Of a stretch of 64,000 nt of DNA, positions 1,283 through 56,472 are shown one piece after another. Location: contig JAGMVK010000014.1 of the NCBI GenBank assembly GCA_020747065.1, forward strand, positions 868,001 to 932,000, in the 5' to 3' direction. The translations under genes were made by a program, and so were the position numbers. The DNA comes from Cadophora sp. MPI-SDFR-AT-0126 (Eukaryota > Ascomycota > Leotiomycetes > Helotiales > Ploettnerulaceae). The notes below the pieces were generated by a model. That model saw nothing but the letters and a program-made list of their open reading frames with translations. It made no database searches and was not told the origin of the DNA. Each line of letters begins with the position of its first letter. Position 1 is the stretch's first letter.

Positions 1283-4200
1283 CTACGTCCCAAAGGCTTG
1301 AGCTGGAGTCGCAGTCGATGAAATAGCCAACGCTTCATTCGTGAGAAACGTCTTCACCCCCGCGTCCCATCCCGTCTTCGCAACAAAGAAACTCAACAAC
1401 TTCTTCCCCGCCTCAATGGCATCTCTCGCCCCATTCCACCCTCCAAAGCTCCCTACATCAGCTGCCGTCACGCTCCCACCCTCGCCATCGAACAGGGGGT
1501 ACGTCAACGGATCGGGCCACGCCTGGTCTCGCAACGACCAGAAACTCTCAATAGGTCCGTACTTGCCCCAAGTACCGGGCTTAAAGGGTCCTGTTGGTCC
1601 AGCAGCGGCATCTACGAGATCAGTTGGATTGAGCAGCGTGCGGCGGACATGCGTCGCTGCGTAGGAGGAGAAGAGTATGTGCAGACAGACGCCTATTGCG
1701 CGGCGCGTGAGGTCCAGATGCGTGTACTTGGTGGCGGAAGCGCAGCCACGGAGCAGGAAACCCAGACTTTGGGACTCTGTTGGGCGTGAGGTTGCTGTGA
1801 AGTATGGCCCCAGTGTTGTTGATTTAATGGCGTCGTTGGGTGTAACTCCTTGCCCGATAGAAAGTTTGTACATGGGCTCGAGCCAGCTGAGCATGTCATC
1901 GACCGTGTCTCGCGCGGTTTGCCCTGGAGACCTAGAAAAGGCGTGGAGGAATTGTAGATCTCCCTTCAAGGCTCGACCTAGAAGGTTTTTGGGATCGTCT
2001 GGAAGAGTGAATTGGTCATGGTAGCGCATATCGTTGGAGAAGACAAAGTTCTTCTCTGCCTGGGCCGTAGTGTCGATGAAGAGAAGCGCAGTTGGATCGT
2101 CTGGCCAGATGGTACCACGCAGCACTTCATCAACTGGAGTTGGACTAGAAACGCTGGCACCAAGCAAGGCTGCTTCGGTGATTCGCTGGAGTAAAGGCGT
2201 ATTGCTCTGCCAGACCGACTGGATTTGAGATGACGTCGGTGGAGCAGGAACCTCTTCGGGCCAATGTTTGATATTCGTGAATGGTTTGGCACCGGGCGGC
2301 AAGTCAGTAAGCTCCTGCTCGTAATTGGCCACAAAGTCTTTGAACTTCTGAGTTATTTTCTTTCCGGAACCTGAATCAATGCAGGTAAAGATGAGTTCAT
2401 CGCCGGCTTCGCTCATTACACCCGAAATCCTAGCAAGTACCTTTGAGTGCGAGGCCATCTTAGCTGGCCTAGCATCGGAGTCAATAGTCAACCAGATGGG
2501 GCCGTACTTCTTCATCAAGTCGACGTAAGTTTGAGTTGTATAGGCTGCTAGCGGCTCTTCGGCCATTCCTAATCCGGCAAGGTATTCATCATATTGGGTG
2601 TTGGAGATGCCTTTCCAGTCAGTCGCTGGGGAATATAAGTCTCCCCATTTGTCGCCTGCCCACTTGACAGCGTCGAGTGCAGTTAGAGATTTCTTGAGCT
2701 TCCACATCAGCATGACAGATGTAGTGTAAGCCCAGCAACCGTCCCCTGTTTGCTTGACTACTTCTAACGGCGGTTCTGGGACGTCTGCGATTACAGGTCC
2801 CTCGGGTACGCCAGTTGGCGGAGTTGGAGTGGTTGTTGATTGACCATCTGCAAAACCTTTCACATCGATAGACTGACTTCCTCCACTCCCATCGGTGACG
2901 ACAGCCTTCACATCCTTTGCATTCCCCACGGCCGAGACCATCGCATCTGCCAGAGTAGGCTTCTGAGGTTTCTCCTTGTCTAAGTCTGCTTGCATCGCAT
3001 CGCCTCCAATCTGCTGCTGGATGTGTTGCTTCATCAACTTGCTAGCGTCTTCCTTGCTCAGAGTCCCTGCTGCCTGCCCTGTCGTAATGTTGTCAACGAT
3101 CTTCGCCGAGTTTTGAGTGTTATGCGCTTGCTGCCCAAGCACCGAAGACATCTGCGCCATAGCCTTGACATTCTCGTTGTTGGAAAGGTACGTCTTTATA
3201 GCGTTGGCTTGGTTCGCGTCGAGTCCAGTGATGTCCTTGAAAATCCCTGATCTGCCCAGAAGATCTGTTGCGGCCGCAAGACCAGCCCCTGGATCCGGGG
3301 CGGCAGGTGCGTTCTGAAGGTTTATCATAGGGGGAGCAAAGTCCTTGAAGTTTGCGCGGTAGTCTGTAATAGTGGGAACCACTGGCTGGACGGTCGCAAT
3401 AGCTGTAGGCTCATCGACACCGAACTTCGTCCAGTCTTGGGAAGTATCAGGCTGGACCTTCTCGCAGCTATCGCAGGCACCCATCACAGCTTCTGCATAG
3501 ACACCGCGGTTAGGCACACTTAAACGGTATGGAGCCTGTGGTTCGTCTGGTCGATAGTGATCCAGGAGTGATGGCGTCTTAGCGGGTGGCACTCCATCTG
3601 CGTTATTGCGTACAATGAGAGACTGGCTGATACGGAAGCCTGGAGCAACTGGAAATACGAGGGAGTTTCCTGCGACAGCAATGAGGTTATTCTTGAGTAC
3701 AGATGCAAGGCTATGAGGCTTATCCGGCATGCCATCTTGGAAGTACGTCTGAATAGTAAACCCATCGAGAAGCAGCCACCGACGATTTGTGTCCAGACTG
3801 TACCACAACATACGATTGTAGTATTCCAGGTTACAGTTGAGATGCTGAATCAACCTGTTTGCGAGGAAAATGTCTTCTTTTCGTGGATCTCTCTTCTCCT
3901 CGGCATTCTCCGGGGTATCAACGGTCACTCCGTTGGGGTCGAGGATGTTCCCAAGTATACCGCCGTCGTAGATGATACCATGGAAATGATCAGTAGAGTA
4001 GTTGATTTTCATTGCAACGAGCGTGAATGTCACAGGAGTGGAATCTAGAGACTGTACCAACGGGCTTCGAGAGCTGATTGTCAACTGCTGTATTACGTTC
4101 CTTGGGTGACTACTCTGAGAACGAAAATTGACAGCCATGTACCTCTCGCCACCGTTGTACTTGCTGATAGAGTTGGGACTTATGTTGAACTTATCCAGTT

Positions 4201-7200
4201 TCAAGCTGTCGATCATATACTTGTAGACTTTTGGGGCGATATCCGACTGAAATATCTGGTCCCACTCTGAGATTAGAGCATCTTGGAAATAGGTTGTCAT
4301 GAGCTTGAGAACCGGAATAGGTGAGGGGCCATCGAATCCCAGACACTGAGCGTATATTTCCCACATTTTGCTGTCCTGTGGACTCATATCGATCAGCTTG
4401 AGTGGATTTGCGACACCACCGGCAACACTGAACGTGAGAAAATTGTGTATTCGAATAGCTTGTGCCGGGGGAACATTCTGGAAATTCGCATCAAGTGACA
4501 TGAAGCCATCAAAGATCTCCTTACGCTGTTGGACTTGCTCAGCCACTGAATGTGTCTCTGGTCCGTCAAAGAGGCTCCACGGTGCTAATATGCCCATGGC
4601 GACAGTTTTGGCAACATCTCCAGCGTCTGTCTCTTGGTGGTAGACAGTCTTGCTGATAATCGGAAGCGATAGGATGAAATCGTATTTGGATTTTGGTCGA
4701 GGCAATTCTGTCTGGATCCCAAAGGAACCAACGATCTCGCGGATATTCTCGCTATCATATGTTCCCTTTGGATAGTCCACATGCAAGTATTGGGTATTGA
4801 TGCGCTCGACAGCGTCAAAGGCCGGGAGCAGCGGATGCTGTGTGGCCCGTGTGCGATAGTTGTAGTGCTTCAGATAGGTGTTCGAGTGAAGGGGTAATAG
4901 TCGTTGTGCTAGAACATCTGCCCACCGAGAAACATTCTGCATGGAAAATTTGGTCATCAGCAGTGGAACGAAAACACATTCCTCAACATCCGTAAGTTCC
5001 TGATAGACAGCGAAATGGCGCAAAACTTCGAAATACATCATTGTCACCGAATGGCAATGATTGTGGTTGGCAATGACATCCGTCTCAGCGTTGTACTTCT
5101 GACCCTCCTGCACCGAAGTCACAGCCGAAGCATTCAATCGTCGATATCCAGCCGCATTCTGATTAATAGACTGTTTCAGCTGCTCGTGAAAGAACTGCGA
5201 CATACTCCTGCCCGAGTGTTGCGAAGCATTGGAGTTTGCATTGGCATACCCCCCAGCAACTCCCATATTGGCACCAAACATACCCGTGCTGCCGCTAGCT
5301 CCGACGGCAGCACTAACACCAGCGGTGGTAGCGGAGCTGTTACCCTCCATCTGCTCTCCAATAGTTCCCGCGATCTGGTCAACGATGCCGCGGTCGTTCA
5401 CCAAGTTAGCTGCGACGGATTCTGTCTGCGTGATGTCCTGCATCTCAGACCCTAGAAGGCTGTGGCTTGAGTCTATTACTACAATCTGTTTCTTCTGTCC
5501 GGGGGCTAGAGGAACGGAGTACAAGAGATCACCAAGAGAGTATCCATCAGACTTGAACTCAGACTTGTAATGCAAAATATGGCCAGTTGCAACAGTGACG
5601 GCCTGGTAGAGTGTAATATTGGCCTGGATCTCAGAAACATCTTGCCATTCAATGGGATTATCCAGATCGATTGGCCGACGTTTGATTTTCCCGTTGCTTT
5701 GCAGGAAGTAAGTCTTGTTGAACTCCGAGTCGGTGATTGCTGTGAGAGTGTAATTCGAGACATCGGGGTCAGAGTCTCGCACAAGGGCGGTGTAGTTGAA
5801 CTCTCGTAACGTACGATTTGGAACCGTAAGATTGATGCATGTGCCGCCGACATCCTGAGTAAACTGGTCTGATTGAATGAGATCTTCTTGGGATGGAAGT
5901 CTACCAGCGGTGGTTGTGCCTTTGCAACTGCAATCATCTTTGCTCGAATCAGGGGTTCCTTGTAGCGGCTTCCCTTGAAGGAGGATGTAAATGAAGTCTG
6001 TGGAGATGGATGTAGTTTTAGAGGATGGATCAGTCGTGATTGGAGTAGTGTTTCCAGCTTCCAGGGAGGTGATTGCCTGTGCTGCTGCAAATTGTCCGGA
6101 TGGATAAGGCATTGAGAAATTGCCCGATTTATCGGACACAGCAGTGGATACGGTGATCCACGGACCTGTCGGTGTCTTCCGGGCTTGAATGATAATTGCA
6201 CCACTGAGTTTACTACACTTCTCCAAAGACACGACCATCCCTCTGAGTTTGAGGTCCGAATTCTGGGTCGTAGTGCTACCTGTTGCTCCACCGACTAAAC
6301 TTCCAGGCAATCTCAAATCTACCACGATATCCAAAGATTGCAGCGCTGGATCATCCGCTTTGAACTCGCCTGACCAGGCTTCCGAGTTGTCGAATGCAGT
6401 CAGCGCCACAGTAACCGGACCAACAATCTGGTTGCGGACCTGCGTGTCTGTGAACCGAAACTTCATCTGCTCATCGACAAATTCAACCTTATTCCAGGCG
6501 TATCGGCTCGTGTGGGGTTTTGCAGCTGTGCCTCCTTCGTCCGTCTCGTAATCTGCCGCTAGATGATAAAATTGAGCATCATCGAACGTGATCTGGCCGA
6601 TGCCTGGAGGCTTGTTGAAACGAACCACGCCCTTCAGACTCAACAACTCAACCTTGTCCATCTCGATAGGGAAGTCAAAAAGCCGGGCGAAATTCTTGGT
6701 GACGTAGTCGTATGTGGCATCCGCCGTCTCCATGGAAAGATCCAGTTGGTTTATCAAGATATCCCGAACTGTTTTCCGCAGAGCGGTCTCGGATCCTTGG
6801 AGGAGAAGTGGCTCCTTGCCGGTGAGATCCACGATTTTATTGATCACGTAGAGTAGAATCATCTCGTCCACTTGAGAGACATTGGGAAGTAAATGGTGCA
6901 GGAACGCAAGATAGGTTTTTTTGTTGACCATGTAGAGCGCCGCATCTACGAGGGTGTTGAGACGAGTCTTTTCAGGGTTGACACTCACAAGTGTGCCCGG
7001 CCGAAAGGCAGTCGTTGAGAAAGAGGGCACAGTTTGCAAGGATCTAGCGGTAGTGTCTTCATCATTCATAGCAGCATTCGGCTGGAGGAAGAGACTTTCT
7101 GGCTGCACAAGACGCAATTTACGTCTGAGTTGCGGACGTTCAGTAACCCTGTCGAGATTTTCTTGTTGGGTCCAGTCAGGTGTCAAGACAGTCAAAAAGA

Positions 7201-7711
7201 AGATCCCCTCGAAAGCATTTTCGTCACTGTCCCCGGCTTCGTCGTGACCGAAGTTCACACCAAGTGGAATTGTCAAGTCACCTAGCTTGAATTCCGTCTG
7301 GGCTTTTCTGTACGATAGGAAGAACTCTTGAAGTGTTGCGCCATAGTCTGCTCCAAAGAGGCCGGCTAGATCAAGACTGGCGTGATATTTTTTCTTGGCC
7401 AAAGTCTGCACGAAGTTGGCCACTCCATTGCCGCTAGCATCGAGCGTTGAAGGAGCTCCTTCATGGGGTTTGAGAAGGAGGCGTGGGAACTTGATGCCAA
7501 TTTCAACGTGGTCAATTGGGGGAGTTGAGCTATCCAGATACTGGAAGGTGGACTGGAGAGGAATCATGGTTCCGATCAAACGACAGGAAGACGAGAGTAC
7601 TCGATTTCCAGATGAGCAGGGCTTTCGGGGGGGATCAAGGCAGCATAGCAAGAGAATTTGTGATAATATTCCAGCCGTCTTATTAAGTACTATAGCAACC
7701 AGCCCCAGCAT
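1283..7711 (-). CDS. Giant intronless protein with papain-like (AvrRpt2/C39-like) cysteine peptidase module
   Basis: One open frame of 2142 codons without introns, ending in TAG at 1283. The N-terminal half has no domain I can name. Residues 723-745 (GYSLGDLLYSVPLAPGQ) lead into a Gly/Ala/Ser-rich stretch near 795-830 and a conserved-looking His/Cys cluster NHNHCH at 882-887. From memory, similar GYSLGDLLYS...NHNHCH proteins occur in bacteria; this is unverified. After an Ala/Gln-rich linker comes GDGCWAYTT with Cys1659, then SHSKVLARI with His1755 and CIDSGSG with Asp1779. Order and spacing (96 and 24 residues) match papain-fold peptidases of the AvrRpt2/C39 type. The last 300 residues are another unnamed region. 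The first Met (7711) gives a short hydrophobic leader; Met49 (codon at 7567-7565, context GGAACCATG) is an equally good start. The gene could be a horizontal acquisition, but that is inference. Confidence 0.8.
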   Translation of the reverse strand: MLGLVAIVLNKTAGILSQILLLCCLDPPRKPCSSGNRVLSSSCRLIGTMIPLQSTFQYLDSSTPPIDHVEIGIKFPRLLLKPHEGAPSTLDASGNGVANFVQTLAKKKYHASLDLAGLFGADYGATLQEFFLSYRKAQTEFKLGDLTIPLGVNFGHDEAGDSDENAFEGIFFLTVLTPDWTQQENLDRVTERPQLRRKLRLVQPESLFLQPNAAMNDEDTTARSLQTVPSFSTTAFRPGTLVSVNPEKTRLNTLVDAALYMVNKKTYLAFLHHLLPNVSQVDEMILLYVINKIVDLTGKEPLLLQGSETALRKTVRDILINQLDLSMETADATYDYVTKNFARLFDFPIEMDKVELLSLKGVVRFNKPPGIGQITFDDAQFYHLAADYETDEGGTAAKPHTSRYAWNKVEFVDEQMKFRFTDTQVRNQIVGPVTVALTAFDNSEAWSGEFKADDPALQSLDIVVDLRLPGSLVGGATGSTTTQNSDLKLRGMVVSLEKCSKLSGAIIIQARKTPTGPWITVSTAVSDKSGNFSMPYPSGQFAAAQAITSLEAGNTTPITTDPSSKTTSISTDFIYILLQGKPLQGTPDSSKDDCSCKGTTTAGRLPSQEDLIQSDQFTQDVGGTCINLTVPNRTLREFNYTALVRDSDPDVSNYTLTAITDSEFNKTYFLQSNGKIKRRPIDLDNPIEWQDVSEIQANITLYQAVTVATGHILHYKSEFKSDGYSLGDLLYSVPLAPGQKKQIVVIDSSHSLLGSEMQDITQTESVAANLVNDRGIVDQIAGTIGEQMEGNSSATTAGVSAAVGASGSTGMFGANMGVAGGYANANSNASQHSGRSMSQFFHEQLKQSINQNAAGYRRLNASAVTSVQEGQKYNAETDVIANHNHCHSVTMMYFEVLRHFAVYQELTDVEECVFVPLLMTKFSMQNVSRWADVLAQRLLPLHSNTYLKHYNYRTRATQHPLLPAFDAVERINTQYLHVDYPKGTYDSENIREIVGSFGIQTELPRPKSKYDFILSLPIISKTVYHQETDAGDVAKTVAMGILAPWSLFDGPETHSVAEQVQQRKEIFDGFMSLDANFQNVPPAQAIRIHNFLTFSVAGGVANPLKLIDMSPQDSKMWEIYAQCLGFDGPSPIPVLKLMTTYFQDALISEWDQIFQSDIAPKVYKYMIDSLKLDKFNISPNSISKYNGGERYMAVNFRSQSSHPRNVIQQLTISSRSPLVQSLDSTPVTFTLVAMKINYSTDHFHGIIYDGGILGNILDPNGVTVDTPENAEEKRDPRKEDIFLANRLIQHLNCNLEYYNRMLWYSLDTNRRWLLLDGFTIQTYFQDGMPDKPHSLASVLKNNLIAVAGNSLVFPVAPGFRISQSLIVRNNADGVPPAKTPSLLDHYRPDEPQAPYRLSVPNRGVYAEAVMGACDSCEKVQPDTSQDWTKFGVDEPTAIATVQPVVPTITDYRANFKDFAPPMINLQNAPAAPDPGAGLAAATDLLGRSGIFKDITGLDANQANAIKTYLSNNENVKAMAQMSSVLGQQAHNTQNSAKIVDNITTGQAAGTLSKEDASKLMKQHIQQQIGGDAMQADLDKEKPQKPTLADAMVSAVGNAKDVKAVVTDGSGGSQSIDVKGFADGQSTTTPTPPTGVPEGPVIADVPEPPLEVVKQTGDGCWAYTTSVMLMWKLKKSLTALDAVKWAGDKWGDLYSPATDWKGISNTQYDEYLAGLGMAEEPLAAYTTQTYVDLMKKYGPIWLTIDSDARPAKMASHSKVLARISGVMSEAGDELIFTCIDSGSGKKITQKFKDFVANYEQELTDLPPGAKPFTNIKHWPEEVPAPPTSSQIQSVWQSNTPLLQRITEAALLGASVSSPTPVDEVLRGTIWPDDPTALLFIDTTAQAEKNFVFSNDMRYHDQFTLPDDPKNLLGRALKGDLQFLHAFSRSPGQTARDTVDDMLSWLEPMYKLSIGQGVTPNDAIKSTTLGPYFTATSRPTESQSLGFLLRGCASATKYTHLDLTRRAIGVCLHILFSSYAATHVRRTLLNPTDLVDAAAGPTGPFKPGTWGKYGPIESFWSLRDQAWPDPLTYPLFDGEGGSVTAADVGSFGGWNGARDAIEAGKKLLSFFVAKTGWDAGVKTFLTNEALAISSTATPAQAFGT

Positions 7712-29767: not shown

Positions 29768-31425
29768 ATGTCGGGTCTTCCTCAGAAGAATGACTACGAG
29801 GAGGGTGTACAGAGGCACCATGCACCTCCTCAGGAAATCGACCCAGAGAGTGGAGTCAAGCGAGGCCTCAAGACTCGGCATCTCAGTATGATGGCTCTGG
29901 CAGGAATTATAGGACCAGGTCTCCTCGTTGGATCAGGCGGTGCTCTCGCAAGTGGTGGTCCAGCTTCACTGTTGATCGGATTTGGTGTCATCGGAATTAT
30001 CGCTTTCAGCATCATGCAATCCCTTGGAGAAATCACGACTCTATATCCAAGCGGTGGAGCATTTACTACTCTCGCCGATCGGTTCGTTGACAAGGCTTTT
30101 GGGGTGGCTGTTGGCTGGAATTACTTCATTATCTGGGCGGCTGTCCTGGCAAATGAGTATAACACAGTTTCGGCAATTTTCGTCTTCTGGAGCGATAAGG
30201 TCCCTCTGTGGGGTTACTTTCTATTATTCTGGTTCTTCTTTTTGGCCTTCCAGCTTTTGGGTGTCGAGACCTTTGGGGAAGCAGAATTTTGGCTTGCGTA
30301 AGTTATTTTTTTGCTGGTATGAGTACGTGGCTGATATTCTACAGACTTCTGAAGCTCATTGGATTGGTCGCATACTTTTTCTTCTCCATTGTCTATGCTG
30401 CAGGTGGACTCAAAGGCCAAGATTCAGCTTTAGGATTTCGCTACTGGCACAATCCAGGTGCATTCGCTGATGGATTTCGTGGAGTTGCCAAAGTCTTTGT
30501 CTTCTGCTCAACATTCTATGCTGGCGTTGAGTCTGTTGCTGTCGCTGCGACCGAGACCAGGAATCCAAGACGTGCTGTCCCGCTTGCAATTCGTCAGGTT
30601 TTCTGGCGTATCGTGTTTATCTACATGGGCTCGGCGTTCTTCTTCGGATTGACTTGTCCATCAAATGCCGAGGGCCTGATTAAGGGTGGAAGTAAAGCTC
30701 TCAAATCCCCCATGACGATCGCTATTCAGAATGCTGGCTGGGAAGGAGGAGTGCATCTGATCAACGCTTTTATCTTCGCTACTTGTCTCTCGGCGGTCAA
30801 CAGCTCCATCTACATCGGATCTCGAACAATTCTTTTCATGGCCCAAGACGGCAAAGCACCAAAATTCCTGGGCTTCACAGACAAGCGAGGTGTACCAATC
30901 TACGCCATCGTTTTTACCAACCTATTCGGTGCTCTTTCCATGATGAATGTCAACACTGGAGCTGGAGCAGCTTACGGTTATATCGTCAATCTCAGCGGTG
31001 TCTCTACATTCCTCGTCTGGGGAGCCATCTCATTCATTCATATCCGATTTCGTCGAGCCTGGTCCCTTCAAGGGCGAAGCGTGAACTCCCTTCCATTCAA
31101 ATCATTCCTGTATCCATACAATGCTTACTTCGGACTCATTGCGAATATCTTTCTCGCATTCGTGCAGGGCTGGACGACTTTAGCTCCCTTCAACGCTGGG
31201 AATTTCGTCGATGCGTATATCCTCCTTCCACTGTTCCCGATCATATACTTTGGGTACAAGTTCGCTTACAAGACGATTTATTGGGATTTGAATGATATTG
31301 ATCTGGATTCCGGCAGGAGAGAGGATTTAGATTCGCAAGTTGAAGCAGAATATCTTTCCGGATCAGAGGAAGCGTCAGATGGCGCGAAGCAGCCTTTTTG
31401 GAAGAGACTAGCTAGGAATTTTTGA
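29768..31425 (+). CDS. Amino-acid permease (YAT family, APC superfamily)
   Basis: Plasma-membrane amino-acid/proton symporter. Exons 29768-30297 and 30345-31425, joined by a 47-nt GT-AG intron (GTAAGT...CTACAG) in phase 2, give 536 residues. A hydrophilic N-terminus ends in GLKTRHLSMMALAGIIGPGL, the signature start of TM1 in fungal YATs. About twelve membrane segments follow, with typical blocks such as GEITTLYPSGGAF, FYAGVESVAVAATETRNPR and NSSIYIGSRTILFMAQDGKAPK. The C-terminus is acidic and Ser-rich, then KQPFWKRLARNF. Substrate cannot be told from sequence. No nearby metabolic genes suggest one. Confidence 0.92.
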
Positions 31426-32189: not shown

Positions 32190-35100
32190 TCAGACCAGAA
32201 AAATCATTTCCTTCGGCAAATGCCTGTTATCCTCCATTAGAGTGTTATCTCTGATATCCTGCATCCACAATCCAACCCGACGATAAGCCTGAGCTCCATT
32301 AAGCATGGTGACAGGTTCAACAATGAGGTTGGTCCTGTGGTCGATAGCAATACTCTTACAATGAACGGGGAGCACGTCCGATTCATCACGAACCATCATC
32401 TTGAGGTTTTCTCTAAGCTCGACGCCATCGACTCGAGGTTGGCTCTGACCGTTCTCATCGTCGAAGAATGGCAGATCTACGATACGTCCAAGTATGGCGA
32501 GCCGACCAGATCGCACTTGGCCGAAAGGATTCAGTCCAGCCAATGTCACTCGAGCGTCAAGTAGCTCGAGGTCGTCTGTGTAGGAAAGGCCGTTCTCAGA
32601 TCGCGTGTAGTTTGAAGGTCCGCCGGGAAATTGAACGCCAGCACAATCAAGTGAAGCCCAGGACCACGTTGGCGCTCGATATGCCGGTCGCGCTCCGACA
32701 GCAGCATGTGGATTACGGAACCATGATATTCCGACCCAGAGGTCTAGTCGCCACAGGCCTGCGAGGTAGCAGTCATCCTCTACTATTTCCGGCCATTCAA
32801 CACAAGCGGGAAATGGCGTATCCTTGTAAACATACAACTGGGATGTTTGAGGTTCCTGTGGAGGCTCAGGTGGACCAGGGGTCTTGGCTTCATTCCCTGC
32901 AGGTGATTTGCTTTCTTCGAGAATCTTTTTCATGTCGAAGTTGATAGTCATTCGCCCCAATGCATCTGGTTCAGGGAATTCAACGTCTGTAAGCCGTTCT
33001 GACATAATGGAGCTTAATCCTTCGAACACTTCATGATCACTAAGCCCAGCCAGTTGCGGGAAACTGTCTTTCGGATGAGTTTCAGGAATTGAGATGCCAT
33101 CTGATTTCCAGCCAATCTCTATACAACATCGCGCATAGTGTGAATCGTTAATCCAGGTGGTCGCGTAGCAACACCATTACGGTCATCAAAATTTTGCTCT
33201 TGAGGTCGATTATTGTCCGTGGACTTCACCGGACTGATCTGATCTTGGTCTGGAGTTATGTCATTATCTGCATTGCAGGAAGAATCTGGTGGCATAGGTG
33301 GCGCTTTGAAAGTCTCCTCATCATCAGCAGTGACTGTTGGATCGATGCCTTCATGTAGATACTTCTGGCTCATACGGAAAGATTCCTGATAGGCTGCATG
33401 TGTGGCTGGCTCTGTCATGATCTGATAAAATAGGTCGTCAGTCAGGTCATCACAGCTCATGGCTTCAACGACCTTGTATAATCCGCTCTTTTCTCCGATT
33501 CTCTTCATAACATCCCACCCTTCGTCCATAATTGTGTGATTACAACTGCGGCCATCCCCATGAGGACCTATCGGCGTCCCACTGGTGTGTGCCGAGAGGA
33601 ACCAGTCCATCCGCAGTGGCATATTTTCGTACCCAGGTAGTGGTGATCCTCTGAAAAACTCAACCTGATCTAAGATTGCTGCTATGGCACCGTTGGCGCT
33701 GTCATTCACCGGCATTCCATTTATGCCAGCATATAGACTTGGTCCGATGGGGCCTTGGACATTAGGGAATCCCGGTGGGGGAGGAAGAGGTTTCAAAAGC
33801 TTTCGAGATTCTTCCTCTGTCGCCAATATCCGTTTAGAACGGCTGCGAAGAAAGAGTGCAAGCTCTGCCGCAAGACCGGACATTGCAGGAAGTGTGTCAT
33901 TTTTATATGTCAGATCTCTAGCAGTGAATCTCTCAATAAGATCACACCATCTCCCAAAAACACTGACTGGCCACTTGACGTAGGAGTCAAACATCCGCCT
34001 TGGAACGACTGGATCGGCGGGTATGATGTACTGAGTTGGAGACAACTCGCGCGTCACTCCCTCTCTACATTGCCAGAAGAGCTCTTTTTCGCTGAAGTAT
34101 AGAACACGAACAGCAAGTTGTGTCTCCTGCAAAATCCACCCACGCTGTTGCAGGGGATCAGAACTCAATGTTTGCCGAATCGAATAACGGGTTCGGTGAA
34201 TGTATCGCACCCTAGCTGGACCATCCGAGTCGCTCCTCACCTCGATTCTCACCGGCTTGCTCTTGATACTGAATCTTTCTAGAAATAGCGATTCATGTGG
34301 AGTCTTCGCTCCACTAGCCGCTATCGTCAGGTAGGAGTCACGATAAATCCCAGCCATACGAGCAGCTTCTCGTTCCCAATCTGCTCGCCAGTCTTGCACA
34401 ATGCAAAAAGAATCGATCCAAATATAGCGAATCCCAAGACCTCGAGTTACAGAGATAGCATCTTGTAAGACTCGCGGTATCAAGTCCCAAGGAATGCTAT
34501 CTTTGTACTCTGGTAGGGTAGCAATGGTCGTCTTCAGTCGTGGTGCAGAAGGATCCTCAGGGCCCTAGCGATAACTCAGAGCGATCCAGCGTCCATGAGA
34601 CCCTTCCGTTTCGAATATTTTGGTGACTGGGTCTTCAAGAGTGCCGACGTCGATCACCCTGGTGGGAAAGGGAGGATCTGCTGGAGGAAAATAGCATGCC
34701 TCATGTTCAGTCAAGCAATGTTCAATCCAGCAGCATATCAGCTCGGCGGGATAAGTCCAGCCATTTTGCAATGACAAGCTGCCCTTCTTCTGGTTTCGAA
34801 TATCACGAAGGTCCTCTTGCCAGCTTAGCTTGGGAGCGTGGGCATCCCTCGACAAAGTCATCTTTGCATGATGAAATTCTGTCGCTTTTCCAGTCAACTC
34901 TTCGATTTTGCAAGGTATTAGCAGTCCGAGCTTGCCCTCCAAGTCTGTACCGACAAGGAGCATTCCTACATGCGTCCTACTCATGCATTCGTGGCACAAT
35001 GCGGTCGTCGTGATTGTCTCGGCCTTTTCGCCCTCCTCTTTCGGTGCGAAATATGGCACATCGGGATCATCGTCAATGCTGCAAAGCATACTGCTATAGA

Positions 35101-39215: not shown

Positions 39216-39220
39216 AAAAA
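39216..39220 (-). terminator. Pol III terminator (TTTTT)
   Basis: Five T on the minus strand, seven bases after the discriminator base of the tRNA-Gly gene. This is the expected RNA polymerase III stop. Confidence 0.75.
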
Positions 39221-39247
39221 GGTATGTTGCGTTCGCCGGGAATCGAA

Positions 39248-39296
39248 CTTTAACTTGTTAGTTGAATCATCGACGATCAGGAGATTTTTCGCTTAC
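39248..39296 (-). other. Intron 2 of tRNA-Gly (GT-AG, 49 nt, position 53/54)
   Basis: Starts GTAAGC and ends TTAAAG. Branch motif AACTAAC places the branch A at 39258, again 10 nt before the intron end. Removal closes the T-stem CCGGG/CCCGG around the loop TTCGATT. Outside the splice motifs it shows no similarity to intron 1. Confidence 0.75.
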
Positions 39297-39311
39297 CCCG
39301 GGGCCCATCGA

Positions 39312-39322
39312 AACTGTCATTA
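39312..39322 (-). other. Canonical tRNA intron (11 nt, position 37/38)
   Basis: Eleven bases between A37 and T38 of the anticodon loop, the standard site cut by the tRNA splicing endonuclease in eukaryotes. Confidence 0.75.
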
Positions 39323-39350
39323 TGGCAACGATGGATTTTACCACTAAACC

Positions 39351-39401
39351 CTACGAGTTGTTAGAATTGCATGTAATTGGATGAAAGTTCTGAAAACTTA
39401 C
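39351..39401 (-). other. Intron 1 of tRNA-Gly (GT-AG, 51 nt, position 8/9)
   Basis: Starts GTAAGT and ends CTCGTAG. Branch motif TTCTAAC places the branch A at 39361, 10 nt before the last intron base. It has the same form as introns in nearby protein genes (for example the C2H2 gene, GCTAACAACACAG). It does not have the bulge-helix-bulge position of a normal tRNA intron. Confidence 0.75.
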
Positions 39402-39409
39402 ACAAACGC

Positions 39410-42400
39410 TCATTCTGACTCATGTATTAGGTGAAATGATGTCGGCGGCCGCTTATTTGGTTACATGCGAGACCCAAATTTTTCCAGATTGAACTTCGAC
39501 AGCGGCTGTTAAGTGGGGGCTTCTCGCTCCCTTCAACACCTCGACTTGAGAAACATCGAGATATTGAAGAGTATTAAGATCATTGAGAAATTTTTACTAG
39601 TTGCAATCTGATAGCTCAGTGTAGACCCTGAGAAGCTCGATGCAACTTGCAATCACAAGCTGGCCGCAATCGATAGACAAACAAATTTTGCTTGTAAAAA
39701 ACATTTGGGAATTCTTCTCTTAGGACAATTCCGGAAGAGGTGTGATGTACATGATTAATTAGAACTAGATCTAATTTGATCGGGGGAGTTCATTCATATG
39801 GTATGACTGACTTCATTTGTAGACTCAGTCGAGTGCAATATCAGTACAGCTTCCTGATCCAATTAAGTGATAATATCCACGCCCGAGCAGGTTTGCAAAG
39901 CCAATTGAATAAGCATCTCTGTTCCATGCCTTCACGCCAGCAGTCACATACATTTCAGTCAGCTCAAAGATTTCCTTCCGTACCAAAAGTCGGCTTAGAA
40001 CAATTAGACACATTTCTCCCTGCCGTAGGAGATTCACAACGGCCGCCGGACCAACCTTCTTGGTTTCAGTCAGCCTAAACGTATGTTCGTCCATCCCCCA
40101 TCGACAAACACAGTTCTCGCACGGGATAGACAACAACCAACTCTCCCAGGTTGTTACACGCCAACTCGATCAGGCTTAGTATGGCAGGTTGTGTCTCATG
40201 CCGGTTGGTCTATCCATGGGTTTTGCCGGAAGCTAAAGAGCTGAATTCAGATATCATTGGAGCCAGTTACACGAGCTTAACCGCCGCTACAAGAGAACAT
40301 GATTTATAAAATTCTAGAGCACCTCAGCAAAAAAACCAAGTTATGATGTGTTCAGTAAGACCGCGCCGGAACGTCCTGGAGAAGATTGATGTGGTTGATC
40401 GACTTGTGTTCACACAAGGTAGAAATCCAATGGACCTCTCTGTAAAAGAGAGGACTTACTCAAGTCTGTTGCGGGGAACTTCATTGGAACAATAGAGTTC
40501 ATCGGGTACCGACAGCTGAGAATCCCTCGAAGCCCACCAGGTTCCACAGGCATTATTCTCGTGCTATCTTCCCGTGTCCGGCAATGGACTCTACATGCCT
40601 TGTTTGACTGGCCCAAAAAGGGCGATCTCTTAGGCGGCTTCTTTAGAGCTAAATCTTCATCAGTTACCGCAGGCTCCCCATGTCTTATCTGTTAGCTCAA
40701 CGAATCATGCTGCCCAAGAGGATCTGGTCCGCAGTACTTGTTGGCAGCTACTCAACTTCAGTATGGCCTCTAACGGAGCTCCTTTCGACGAGACACTTGT
40801 ATAATTCGGATCATATAGAATATGAGCTGGTACATATACTGCGATGAACCTGTGCCTGAATCTAGATTCTAGCGAGGCGTATGTGAAGGACCTGTTTGGA
40901 CAGTGGACGGGAACTCTCGCTAGCCAATATTACACTCTAAATTTTGAGTTGTCTTGACTACTAGTGTGTTTCTCCACCATGGTACACCTGGAGTTTGAAT
41001 GGCTGACAGCATCGGGTTCTTGCAAGCCACGTTCTGCTTAAGTTACATCAGGGTCAATTTTGAGGATTCTGAGGTGTTTTCTGCACAGAAGGCTGGGCTC
41101 GGAAACAGAGGGGTGCCAGACAGCTATCGCAAACCAATACAATTCTCAAAACAAAGAGAGCACTTCCACGATTCACTGTAGCTCGGCCGGAAAGACTTGA
41201 ACACATCTGGATGATGGCGCTGCTGAAGGTCTCGTGTTCGTTGGTATTTCGTGGCATCTAGACAATGCAATTCATGGCTGAGCGGGCACGGTGTATTCTT
41301 AGTGCTAATCATGGCAGGGGTCGGAGCCAGATACGAGCTGTTAGATTTGCTAGCCGTCTCCTTGTGGATGGAGAGGGAGATACCACTATCTTCATGTCAC
41401 TTCCAATCATTATCGGACCACTTATCACTTTGTGGAAGAAGAAGATAAGTCCCTCCCCAGATCGTAGACTCATTTATCCATAAATTGATAAGCCTTTGAT
41501 CGAAGCCCTCTCAGGGGCCGATGGTAGCTCGATTTTCATTAGCAAATAGTGTGCCCCGAAGATTATCACAAGACAGCTGACATGACGCCTCGATGTGTAA
41601 ACTTCAGTAGTATCAGTCTAACTCAAGAGCACTGCAAGATGATGGATACATGAAAGTCTTCCTTGTTCTTGTCAGCACAAATTGAAGAATAGTCCGGGAA
41701 GTTATCGTCGAATTTCTCCCCGAACTCCCCCACAAACATCCCTCCACTAACCATCCCGCGTCTGCCAGGATCACCAACCCCAATCCCATACGAACCTTAA
41801 TCTCACGCTCTCACGCCCATCCACAAAGCAACAGAGCTGACCAACTGCAGCCCAGTCCGTACACATAGGACCAATCTGATCATTCGCATCCTGCCACAAC
41901 ATTAGCTGTGACAACAGCGCAGGGCTGCTGTGGCGCCAAGCAATGCCAAACTTCCTGATGTCAAGCTAGAAGGATTTCAGAAGACTAGAAGACTTCTAGA
42001 AGGCCGCTAGAACATCACTAGAAGCTGCTCCGCCACCTCCATCGTCATCTCATAGGCTGCTGGTCTGGGGAATCACCGCATCACGAGCAACACTACCGGA
42101 ACTAGCTTTACCAAGGACCTTGGCCGTCCTTGTCACGCTTCTGATCCGACCTTAGCACCTATCGGACAAGAAGAGTCGTTCTTGCTCTGCCGTGATGTTG
42201 ATATTGGCTTGCAAAAAGTCTACATCACTTCCTGGTATGGAGTCGAGTTTGTGGAGGAGAAACTGGGGCACCCAAGGCTTCCCCTCATGTCCAAGAACGC
42301 CTACGATGATTCTCGTCGAAGGTGGCTGCTTGGCGGAAGTGGTGGTGCTAGAAATGACGGGAGGAGAGGAATAGTACGATGTCCAGCGGTTTGCCGTTTC

Positions 42401-54062: not shown

Positions 54063-54282
54063 AATAGTCATTCATGCCTGCGCTCTGGAACTTGAATCGT
54101 TGTGCAGACTTCAACCAAGAAGAAATGCAGTGGTAAGCCGGACATTTGCCGGTTGATGTCTTGGCGCCTTGTCTCTCCCCCGCCTTTGGTTCGACGTGGC
54201 CTTAGGTTCAGCCGTGTCGCAGACAATACGAAGTACAACGCTTCATGTCTCCACTCATCTGACGCACTTACCTTCCTTGAGC

Positions 54283-56472
54283 ATGGCAGCTCTCGAGACA
54301 TACCAGTACACATCGCTCCGACTCGGGGACTCGACTTTCCGACTCCTGAAGCTATTGAAATACCAAGGTCCTGAGCTCGAATGTGAGCTTTTCCCACAGT
54401 CGCTATCGAACAACGAACACGTTTCATACGAAGCCCTCTCCTACATATGGGGCAGCACCGAGCTCGTGGAATGCATAATTCTTGATCGAAAGCGGCACTG
54501 GATAACGAACAATCTGTATTCTGCATTACTATACTTGCAATTGCACGACAGAGACCATTATCTATGGATTAATGCAATATGTATCAACCAAGCTAACAAA
54601 GAAGAACAGGGCCGGCAGGTTCAGCAGATAGGGAAAATCTTCGGACTTGCTGAGGGAGTTCTCTTTTGGCTAGGAAAGGCAACGTTAGAGATCACGAGCC
54701 TTATGGACGCACTCAATCAGTATTCAAAGACAGGTGCAGATTGCCAACCTGGGCAGTTGACGCTTGACGATAGCCGTTGGGATGAATATCGTACCGGTTT
54801 ATGGCAACTGCTAGGCCGACAGTGGTTCACACGGGTCTGGATTCTACAGAAAATAGCAAACGCTCGAAAAGCTACTATCTATTGTGGCACTCGGTCTATT
54901 TCAGCGGAAATATTTGCCTCTGCACCGTCTGTAATAAGAGAAGAGCCTGAGCCGCACTGTCAAGCTATACTGGAGATCATGCCAGGACCTTCCCGTTCAG
55001 GATCTTGGTGGGGCCAGAAACGAGACTTATGCGCCCTCCTCCGCAGATTCCCGGCGAGCAAAGCAACAGACGAACGCGACAAGATATATGCCCTACTCGG
55101 CATGTCCTCTGATCCTTTAGATACCCAAAGCATTGATATAGACTACGAGAAGCCGACTCACCAAGTCATTCACCGGGCTGTAACATATCTGCTTCGTTCT
55201 ACACCTGCATCTGTTCATGAGATTCTCAATCTCATGTACCACTTCGAAACTCTAGAAACAACCTATTTTGTGCTACCACTTGGGCAAGAGGAAGCAACGG
55301 AAATTCTTTTCCCTCACCTTCAGTCAGGGACCATGTTAAACGAGCCGGTCAAGCCTAAAGAATCATCAGACTTCGTGTCCCAAGGCATAGTAGTTGTTAA
55401 TGATCCAGCGCTGTTCTTGTTTGAAAAGAGACCGAAAAGAAATCTCAATGAGGAGGAAACGTGTCACAGTCAGGTTGTTAGGCTTATACTAGGTGCCCGG
55501 ACGAACGAATCTCAAAAACACAAGAAATATGATAATGGGTTGAGGGTGATTTCGTGGGGAAGTCCTGAGCACCGAGTCAAGATTGTGGTTATTCATGACA
55601 GGAAAAAGGCTGTAGTACAGGCTGCACTACAAGGGTGCGCCCACATTGTGAAATATTTGCTGCACTTGAAAGTAGGAGATGAAGGAGAGAAGTTGGAAGA
55701 TGAAGTGCTCCGAGGGGCCATAGATGAGGACCACATGGTGGCTGTTCAAACAATACTGCATCAAATTACCCATGTGCACGTACAAGGTCGATACGACAAC
55801 GCACTCCAGGCGGTTTCATATAGAGGGCACGAGCAGGTTGTAAAGCTGCTGCTCGATAAGGGCGCCGACGTTAACGCGCAGAGTGGATTCTACGGCAACG
55901 CACTCCAGGCGGCTTCGGCAGGAGGCCACGAGCAGGTAGTGAAGCTACTACTCGATAAGGGCGCCAACGTCAACGCGCAAGGTGGATCCTACGGCAACGC
56001 ACTCCAGGCGGCTTCGTATGGAGGCTGCGAGCAAATAGTGAAGCTACTACTCGACAAGGGCGCCAACGTTAACGCGCAAGGTGGATCCTACGGTAACGCA
56101 CTTCAGGTAGCTTCGTATAAAGGGCACGAGCAGGTAGTGAAGCTACTACTCGATAAGGGCGCCGACGTTAACGCGCAAGGTGGATACTACGGCAACGCGC
56201 TCCAGGCGGCTTTAGCAGGAGATTATGAGCAGGTGATGAAGCTGCTGTTCGACAAAGGCGCCGACGTCAACGCGCAGGGTGGAGTCTACGGCAACGCACT
56301 TCAGGTGGCTTCAGCAGGAGGCTACAAGCAGGTAGTAAAGCTACTACTCGATAAGGGCGCTGATATCAACGCGCAGGGTAGGTTCTATAGCAACGCACTC
56401 CAGGCGACTTTGTTAGGAGGCCACGAGCAGGTAGTAAAGCTACTGCTCGATAAGGGCGCTGACGTTAACTAG
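54283..56472 (+). CDS. HET-domain protein with tandem ankyrin repeats
   Basis: Predicted incompatibility or NLR-like immune protein. From ATG 54283 (GAGCATGGC; an upstream in-frame ATG at 54169 is less likely) the intronless frame gives 729 residues. The HET domain shows EALSYIWGS, YLWINAICINQANKEEQGRQ, ARQWFTRVWILQKI-type sequence (LGRQWFTRVWILQK) and DERDKIYALLGM. After a divergent linker, about seven ankyrin units of 34 residues follow (NALQAASAGGHEQVVKLLL then DKGADVNAQ), nearly identical at DNA level. A TAG at 56470-56472 ends the frame, but the repeat pattern continues in frame for one more unit to a TAA at 56580-56582, so the last repeat is cut off. No NACHT or NB-ARC motif is present. 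Codon use and GC are normal, unlike the AT-rich flanks. Confidence 0.85.
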   Translation: MAALETYQYTSLRLGDSTFRLLKLLKYQGPELECELFPQSLSNNEHVSYEALSYIWGSTELVECIILDRKRHWITNNLYSALLYLQLHDRDHYLWINAICINQANKEEQGRQVQQIGKIFGLAEGVLFWLGKATLEITSLMDALNQYSKTGADCQPGQLTLDDSRWDEYRTGLWQLLGRQWFTRVWILQKIANARKATIYCGTRSISAEIFASAPSVIREEPEPHCQAILEIMPGPSRSGSWWGQKRDLCALLRRFPASKATDERDKIYALLGMSSDPLDTQSIDIDYEKPTHQVIHRAVTYLLRSTPASVHEILNLMYHFETLETTYFVLPLGQEEATEILFPHLQSGTMLNEPVKPKESSDFVSQGIVVVNDPALFLFEKRPKRNLNEEETCHSQVVRLILGARTNESQKHKKYDNGLRVISWGSPEHRVKIVVIHDRKKAVVQAALQGCAHIVKYLLHLKVGDEGEKLEDEVLRGAIDEDHMVAVQTILHQITHVHVQGRYDNALQAVSYRGHEQVVKLLLDKGADVNAQSGFYGNALQAASAGGHEQVVKLLLDKGANVNAQGGSYGNALQAASYGGCEQIVKLLLDKGANVNAQGGSYGNALQVASYKGHEQVVKLLLDKGADVNAQGGYYGNALQAALAGDYEQVMKLLFDKGADVNAQGGVYGNALQVASAGGYKQVVKLLLDKGADINAQGRFYSNALQATLLGGHEQVVKLLLDKGADVN

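Follow-up and report, generated by a model that had tools for sequence, protein, structure and literature searches.

Introns with mRNA-type splice signals in at least 29 nuclear tRNA genes of a Cadophora genome, including all three tRNA-Asn genes found, and their likely removal by the spliceosome

A tRNA-Gly(GCC) gene in three exons

On the minus strand of the window, by which we mean the whole stretch of 64,000 nucleotides that was analysed, positions 39409-39228, read base by base, spell out a tRNA-Gly(GCC) gene divided into three exons (Table 1). Three insertions interrupt the mature sequence. One is an 11-nt stretch at the ordinary 37/38 site, and the other two, at positions 8/9 and 53/54, begin with GTAAGT and GTAAGC, respectively, contain CTAAC, and end with AG. 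Specifically, each of these two GT-AG introns ends 10 nt after a branch-like A. When all three insertions are removed, the remaining 71 nt are called as tRNA-Gly(gcc) by ARAGORN with introns allowed, and are identical at 71 of 71 positions to the sequence of an intact Gly(GCC) paralog. The acceptor stem is formed by six Watson-Crick pairs and one G-T pair.

These observations agree closely with an initial annotation of the same DNA, which had proposed a flawless 71-nt tRNA-Gly(GCC) carrying two spliceosomal-type introns in addition to its ordinary tRNA intron, and a stem of six Watson-Crick pairs plus one wobble. Its placement of all three insertions, the motifs it described at 8/9 and 53/54, and its junctions at 39402/39350 and 39297/39247 are exact. 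Likewise, box B was described as nearly kept and followed by five T residues; exon 3 indeed holds most of box B, and the T run is present downstream.

The initial annotation had also raised the question of whether standard tRNA finders miss this gene, and those used here do. ARAGORN with introns allowed makes no call on the unspliced version, and its bacterial mode reports no tRNA in the whole window. Similarly, Rfam at its gathering cut-off reports no match in the whole window, and the tRNA family yields no match to a 421-base stretch at the locus even at E 10.

Table 1. Features of the split tRNA-Gly(GCC) locus and of a protein-gene intron used for comparison (window coordinates)
Feature	Position	Strand	Remarks
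Upstream AAATAAG element	39452..39458	-	49 nt 5' of tRNA start
tRNA-Gly(GCC) exon 1, nt 1-8, GCGTTTGT	39402..39409	-	7/7 pairing with 3' acceptor strand
Spliceosomal-type intron 1, 51 nt, GTAAGT...CTAAC...TAG	39351..39401	-	between mature nt 8 and 9
Branch-point-like CTAAC, intron 1	39360..39364	-	sequence reading and branch-motif script
Exon 2, 5' part, mature nt 9-36 (to A37 in tRNA numbering)	39323..39350	-	
Ordinary tRNA intron, 11 nt, at 37/38	39312..39322	-	ARAGORN i(38,11)
Exon 2, 3' part	39297..39311	-	whole exon 2 is 39350-39297
Spliceosomal-type intron 2, 49 nt, GTAAGC...CTAAC...AAG	39248..39296	-	tRNA positions 53/54
Branch-point-like CTAAC, intron 2	39257..39261	-	
Exon 3, TTCGATTCCCGGCGAACGCA	39228..39247	-	contains most of box B
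T5 Pol III-type terminator	39216..39220	-	sequence reading
Amino-acid permease intron, 47 nt, GTAAGT...CTGAT...CAG	30298..30344	+	tblastn with homologue P0121

The permease intron is the sole protein-gene intron verified by homology in this work. The tblastn alignment stops and restarts at its borders with no residue lost and one codon split, and its build is like that of the tRNA-gene introns. Two scans for look-alike introns gave weak signals: five sites in the window, one of them the finding itself, compared with a null mean of 1.3 and a maximum of 5, and 18 sites compared with 6-10 in the null.

Several protein-coding features of the window were recorded alongside this locus. A 2142-aa open reading frame (1283-7711, minus strand) matches Pfam Peptidase_C70 (papain-like, AvrRpt2) at residues 1650-1797. 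Two others encode HET (heterokaryon incompatibility) domains, one at 33119-34483 (minus) and one, with ankyrin repeats, at 54169-56472 (plus); such genes fit a filamentous ascomycete. A 447-aa protein is 91% identical to a protein of Cadophora gregata, 89% to one of Leptodontidium, 88% to one of Rhexocercosporidium and 84% to one of Rhynchosporium, genera of the order Helotiales; by this measure the fungus is close to Cadophora.

Split tRNA genes across the genome

A search of the 54-Mb genome (38 contigs) with the spliced Gly sequence as query located six Gly(GCC) genes. Three (L044, L050 and L051) are intact except for a 37/38 intron, and three (the window gene, L067 and L068) carry a GT-AG insertion at a common 53/54 site. 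Among these genes the second insertion, at 8/9, is found in the window gene only. The 37/38 intron measures 11 nt in the window gene and 12-39 nt in the other five. Because three intact Gly(GCC) copies exist, the window gene could be redundant. Upstream of a Glu gene (L159) lies what appears by eye to be a trace of another tRNA-Gly(GCC) gene, namely its 5' half in antisense orientation.

Searches by tRNA family, by similarity and by B-box pattern revealed at least 29 split tRNA genes holding 39 GT-AG introns, with up to three in a single gene. Thus, the initial reading of the window gene stands, but its scope as a single case was too narrow. Of 93 tRNA genes seen, 29 are split; the others are the 60 unsplit genes used for comparison and four unsplit-looking Asp genes known by position only, with the dropped loci excluded. 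These counts are lower bounds, since the family search scored only 62 of its 1988 candidates. The split isotypes are Gly(GCC), Gly(TCC), Ile(AAT), Thr(AGT), Ser(GCT) and Asn (three genes each), Tyr (two), and Thr(TGT), Arg(TCT), Arg(TCG), Arg(ACG), elongator Met, Pro(TGG), Pro(CGG), Glu(TTC) and Leu(CAG) (one each), and most of them also possess intact copies. Genes for Phe(GAA), His(GTG) and Val(AAC) were not located in the searches made, and the census is to that extent incomplete; probes based on fungal tRNAs gave no identifiable match of their own for the missing isotypes. A pattern search built on the 3' splice site returned 42 matches, mostly chance and below the 119 of its reversed control.

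All 39 GT-AG introns lie away from the 37/38 site. They sit after 19 different positions of the mature sequence, from nt 5 to nt 58, a few of which coincide in tRNA numbering because tRNAs differ in length. Many of the split genes have an ordinary 37/38 intron as well. The most heavily interrupted genes are Ser(GCT) L131, Ser(GCT) L153 and Pro(CGG) L173, with three GT-AG introns apiece; in L131 and L173 there is a 37/38 intron besides.

The introns have a consistent architecture. The donor is GTAAGT in 18 of 39, with G at position 5 in 38 and T at position 6 in 32, and the acceptor is CAG in 25, TAG in 8 and AAG in 6. A branch-like YTRAY motif is present in every intron (the script picks CTAAC in 22), and in 36 introns its A stands at a distance of 9-12 nt from the 3' end. 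The remaining distances are 16, 17 and 35 nt, the last being the script's pick in L151, where a CTAAT at 11 nt is also visible by eye. Lengths range from 47 to 96 nt with a median of 51. Where a boundary could slide, the GT-AG placement was chosen, and in six genes (the three Asn genes, Leu(CAG), Pro(CGG) and Ser L171) the boundaries were set with no unsplit paralog among those found. If random insertions are each allowed about two placements, about 0.3 of 39 would be expected to be writable as GT..AG. The recurrence of GT-AG in all 39 insertions counted, spread over 29 genes, excludes chance. To serve as a control, the 59 introns assigned by ARAGORN to the anticodon loop in the same gene set (some of them misplaced by the program) were slid four bases either way; only three could be written as GT..AG, and none of these had a branch motif.

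The same architecture recurs in a U6 gene copy of this genome (L176:84-134, within C11:486560-486780), where a 51-nt GTAAGT...CTAAC...CAG intron lies between GCATGGC and CCCTGC. Without this intron, L176 matches an intronless U6 copy (L177) across the junction. Three places on contig C38 match the U6 family over its full length and have no such insertion.

A number of candidate loci were set aside. Removing a GTAAGT...AG stretch after nt 5 of L166 (minus strand, C3:598260-598700) produces a Trp(CCA) call, so that this locus is possibly a further split gene; it was excluded for one acceptor A-C and an Rfam score of 24.6 bits, which is below the cut-off. Loci L154, L162, L164, L165, L167 and L172 were excluded by eye as unclear, degenerate or chance. 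When GT-AG stretches were removed from L135, L142 and L152, ARAGORN called a scatter of isotypes, and no call was convincing as a split tRNA. These last three loci (on the minus, plus and plus strands, respectively) are each exactly 149 nt long. They have a paired acceptor stem, the sequences of both D and T arms, and a T run, but about 77 nt are inserted at the anticodon, and in L142 and L152 this stretch forms a long central hairpin. Rfam scores L135 and L142, and not L152, as tRNA with a large insertion. Possibly they are tRNA-like Pol III RNAs of an unfamiliar kind.

Asparagine codons are read only by tRNA-Asn(GTT). All three Asn(GTT) genes found (L150, L151 and L175) are split at a common site, after nt 26, and the cores of their introns have diverged. 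Removal of the intron is predicted to create the junction GCGC/GTTCGACTGTTA, and a 21-base search for this unsplit junction, allowing up to three mismatches, gave no match in the genome. An unsplit Asn gene would be expected to appear as a longer similarity match, as the Asp genes did, and none appeared; that similarity list does not include every very short piece, and it lacks the first exon of L151 (26 nt). Unless the assembly lacks another copy, at least one of the three genes must yield tRNA, because no other tRNA reads asparagine codons. Given that every Asn gene found is split and that the searches revealed no unsplit copy, it is very probable that the split form functions.

Conservation, transcription signals and maturation

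With their introns removed, all 29 split genes receive an ARAGORN tRNA call. The anticodon is the expected one in 26 of them, and the program misreads L057, L151 and L169. In unspliced form 20 of the 29 receive no call. Among the nine that do, four are typed correctly (L057, and also L055, L062 and L064, although the 5' end of these three is wrong) and five are mis-typed. Thus, tRNA finders can miss many genes in genomes of this kind.

The exons of these genes retain the pairing required of a tRNA. Across the split genes, 197 of 203 acceptor-stem positions are paired, compared with at most 133 in 2000 re-dealings of the 3' strands, and the six unpaired positions are accounted for by two T-T mismatches in each of the three split Gly(TCC) genes. 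The same two acceptor mismatches, in GCTTCTG/CAGTTGC, occur in all four Gly(TCC) genes found (L136, L137, L138 and L139), whether split or not.

The acceptor stems of 19 of the 29 genes were compared with those of unsplit paralogs. This reveals 17 two-sided changes that keep pairing, some of them inherited in common. One-sided changes number three, and every pair affected by them is kept. For 15 genes that were aligned whole, the spliced sequence differs from that of the paralog by 0-9 mismatches, and in five of them (three Gly at 71/71 and two Ile at 74/74) there is no mismatch to the intact paralog at all. The introns behave differently. Across 15 paralog pairs, the identity between intron cores is 39-66% (39-53% when shuffled, with several pairs somewhat above the shuffled values), whereas the spliced RNAs are 78-100% identical even with differences in the 37/38 introns included. 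Between paralogs, exons have changed far less than introns.

Signals typical of Pol III genes flank the split genes much as they flank intact ones. In a scan of the 75 nt preceding each gene, AAATAAG with at most one mismatch is found for 25 of the 29 split genes and for 53 of the 60 unsplit ones. Shuffled flanks contain it in 208 of 890 cases, and flanks read on the opposite strand in 13 of 89. Upstream of tRNA genes in general it often lies inside TATCTAACCAAATAAGC, mostly between -21 and -71. The sequence looks like an upstream, TATA-like promoter element for Pol III. Downstream, a run of at least five T residues occurs within 40-60 nt of all 16 split genes that were found without using a T run (three of the B-box patterns select for one, and genes found only in that way were left out of this count), and within 40 nt of 36 of the 43 unsplit genes of the family search. 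Runs of this length in the 40 nt upstream are seen in 0 of 16 split and 5 of 43 unsplit genes. Together, the tRNA calls, the acceptor pairing, the contrast between exon and intron divergence, the upstream element and the terminator indicate that the split genes are under selection.

Two aspects of the Pol III signals do not favor the reading that the split genes yield Pol III transcripts matured by splicing. First, box A or box B is interrupted by an intron in some split genes. Where the intron lies at 52/53 or 53/54, box B remains intact or almost intact, since the AG of the intron adjoins or replaces G52-G53. In L129, L130 and L132, introns lie inside box B, after nt 54 or 58, and these are three of the four split genes whose upstream element is weak (2-3 mismatches). 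With box B cut and the upstream element weak, these three genes may be poorly expressed. Second, the introns show no depletion of T runs as a signature of Pol III transcription: T5 occurs in 1 of 39, compared with 2.0 expected, which is not a significant difference. The single T5, inside the intron of L174, might cause an early Pol III stop.

Spliceosomal introns normally occur in Pol II transcripts. This fact, and the disruption of box A or box B by some of the introns described here, could be reconciled with the data if spliceosomal splicing acted only on read-through Pol II transcripts that are of no use in translation. We consider this very unlikely, because the upstream element and T-run terminator are those of intact tRNA genes, because tRNA structure is conserved across the introns, and because asparagine would be left without a tRNA source.

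A second explanation would treat the split copies as decaying pseudogenes struck by insertions, with the cell relying exclusively on its intact copies. Such copies do exist for many split isotypes, as illustrated by the three for Gly(GCC), and degenerate tRNA pieces do occur in the genome (L162 and L164). Indeed, because most split isotypes have intact copies, most single split genes could be dispensable. Decay is nonetheless hard to reconcile with five genes that remain perfectly identical to their paralogs in sequence while the cores of their introns have largely diverged, with compensatory changes in acceptor stems, with splice signals retained in 39 of 39 introns, or with three Asn genes that are all split and have no unsplit counterpart among the genes found. 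We therefore hold it to be extremely improbable. The initial annotation had itself named a decaying locus with random insertions and no conserved splice motifs as a finding that would speak against it, and the comparison with paralogs yields the opposite picture on each point.

A third explanation would have the insertions be non-canonical introns, removed by a tRNA endonuclease whose specificity is relaxed, with GT-AG ends that are incidental. Archaea and Cyanidioschyzon merolae provide the model, and nuclear tRNA introns do occur outside 37/38 in C. merolae (PMC3978253). This is just as difficult to credit, since GT-AG is invariant and the branch motif stands at 9-12 nt in 36 of 39, a strict bulge-helix-bulge (4-bp central helix, 3-nt bulges) is formed by 0 of 39 (mispaired controls, mean 0.6 and maximum 4), the architecture matches that of the permease and U6 introns, and the ordinary-site introns of the same gene set do not have these signals.

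We prefer to read the window locus as a nuclear tRNA-Gly(GCC) gene that holds, in addition to its 37/38 intron, two GT-AG introns bearing U2-type signals. In this reading it belongs to a set of at least 29 tRNA genes interrupted by such introns, and its transcript is matured by the spliceosome and then by the tRNA splicing endonuclease and ligase. We regard this as very likely, splicing itself being predicted from the anatomy of the genes, their recurrence, and the conservation of signals and exons in the sequence. RNA polymerase III would start from the AAATAAG-type element together with the internal boxes, and the T run would end transcription. Next, the introns of about 50 nt would be excised by the spliceosome through intron definition, and their removal would restore the acceptor stem and the D and T arms. 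RNase P, RNase Z and the endonuclease presumably act only afterwards, because these enzymes read the folded tRNA, which the introns disrupt.

More broadly, at least 29 tRNA genes of this genome, including the three for Asn, are interrupted by introns with the signals of mRNA introns, and their maturation likely needs the spliceosome. It is probable that in this fungal lineage U2-type introns have invaded the tRNA set so deeply that the essential tRNA-Asn(GUU) is made solely from a spliceosome-dependent precursor, that some tRNAs require four splicing events by two unrelated machineries, and that asparagine decoding, and translation with it, is hostage to the spliceosome. To our knowledge, the spliceosome is not known to process tRNAs. 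If splicing is confirmed, the textbook division that assigns nuclear tRNA introns to the tRNA endonuclease and spliceosomal introns to Pol II transcripts would be broken, and tRNA supply would be coupled to the spliceosome.

Intron gain and relation to known systems

Intron sites are common to paralogs in Asn (three genes), Gly(GCC) (three), Gly(TCC) (two), Ile (two), Tyr (two), Ser (two), Thr(AGT) (two) and two Arg types. This sharing suggests that introns were gained before the genes duplicated, and the range of sites they occupy points to many independent gains. Introner-like elements of fungi have been proposed as a source of new spliceosomal introns (PMC4457414). These are near-identical copies in many genes, whereas each of the 20 of 39 tRNA introns that were searched against the genome matches only itself. 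Among all 39, four pairs share short stretches, the longest being 29 nt in the Tyr pair. Thus, no family of introners that is currently multiplying is seen among the introns searched. Because unsplit paralogs are present in the same genome, intron gain outside protein genes can be read here at base resolution.

Among the papers listed in searches of an open-access library, none reports that nuclear tRNA genes contain spliceosomal introns, and the phrase 'spliceosomal introns in tRNA' had no match there. This agrees with the initial annotation, which knew of none in a tRNA gene. In the sections consulted, the description of tRNAscan-SE 2.0 (PMC8450103) presents detection of non-canonical introns for its archaeal mode and has no word starting with 'spliceosom', and a review of tRNA introns (PMC4090602) has no such word either; the portion of PMC4494063 consulted holds nothing bearing on spliceosomal introns in tRNA. 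A 2026 review states that tRNA splicing relies on protein enzymes and not on the spliceosome (PMC13149111).

Nuclear tRNA introns are described as 'located exclusively' at 37/38, with red-algal and nucleomorph exceptions given in the same paper (PMC3978253, in part). These ordinary introns differ from those reported here in that they occur at 37/38 only, are removed by endonuclease and ligase, and do not combine GT-AG with a branch motif. The ectopic tRNA introns of Archaea, Cyanidioschyzon merolae and the Guillardia nucleomorph are similar in that they occupy sites other than 37/38 and can be several per gene. Unlike the introns of this genome, which lack the strict central helix throughout, they are based on the bulge-helix-bulge; many tRNA introns of the Guillardia nucleomorph form no defined motif, according to the relevant passage of PMC3978253.

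Spliceosomal introns also occur in structural RNAs made by other polymerases, and the initial annotation had correctly named them for fungal U6 and rRNA genes (PMC10484740 and PMC8527467, both in part). Ascomycete rRNA, notably that of lichens, carries introns of the U2 type (PMC8527467, citing Bhattacharya 2000). They likewise interrupt a structural RNA from another polymerase, but their host is a Pol I transcript, and the passages of PMC8527467 drawn on here mention no tRNA case.

The U6 RNA of S. pombe splices out an mRNA-type intron (PMC10484740, in part). Fungal U6 introns, including that of one U6 copy in this genome, share with the introns described here their residence in a short Pol III transcript. 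U6 is therefore a precedent for U2-type introns in a Pol III RNA, with no tRNA case found. It differs in that U6 is itself a part of the spliceosome, and its intron is thought to derive from reverse splicing near the catalytic bases (PMC10484740, same portion). By comparison, the hosts in this genome are tRNAs, and the introns are distributed over at least 29 genes and 19 positions of the mature sequence, with up to three in a single gene.
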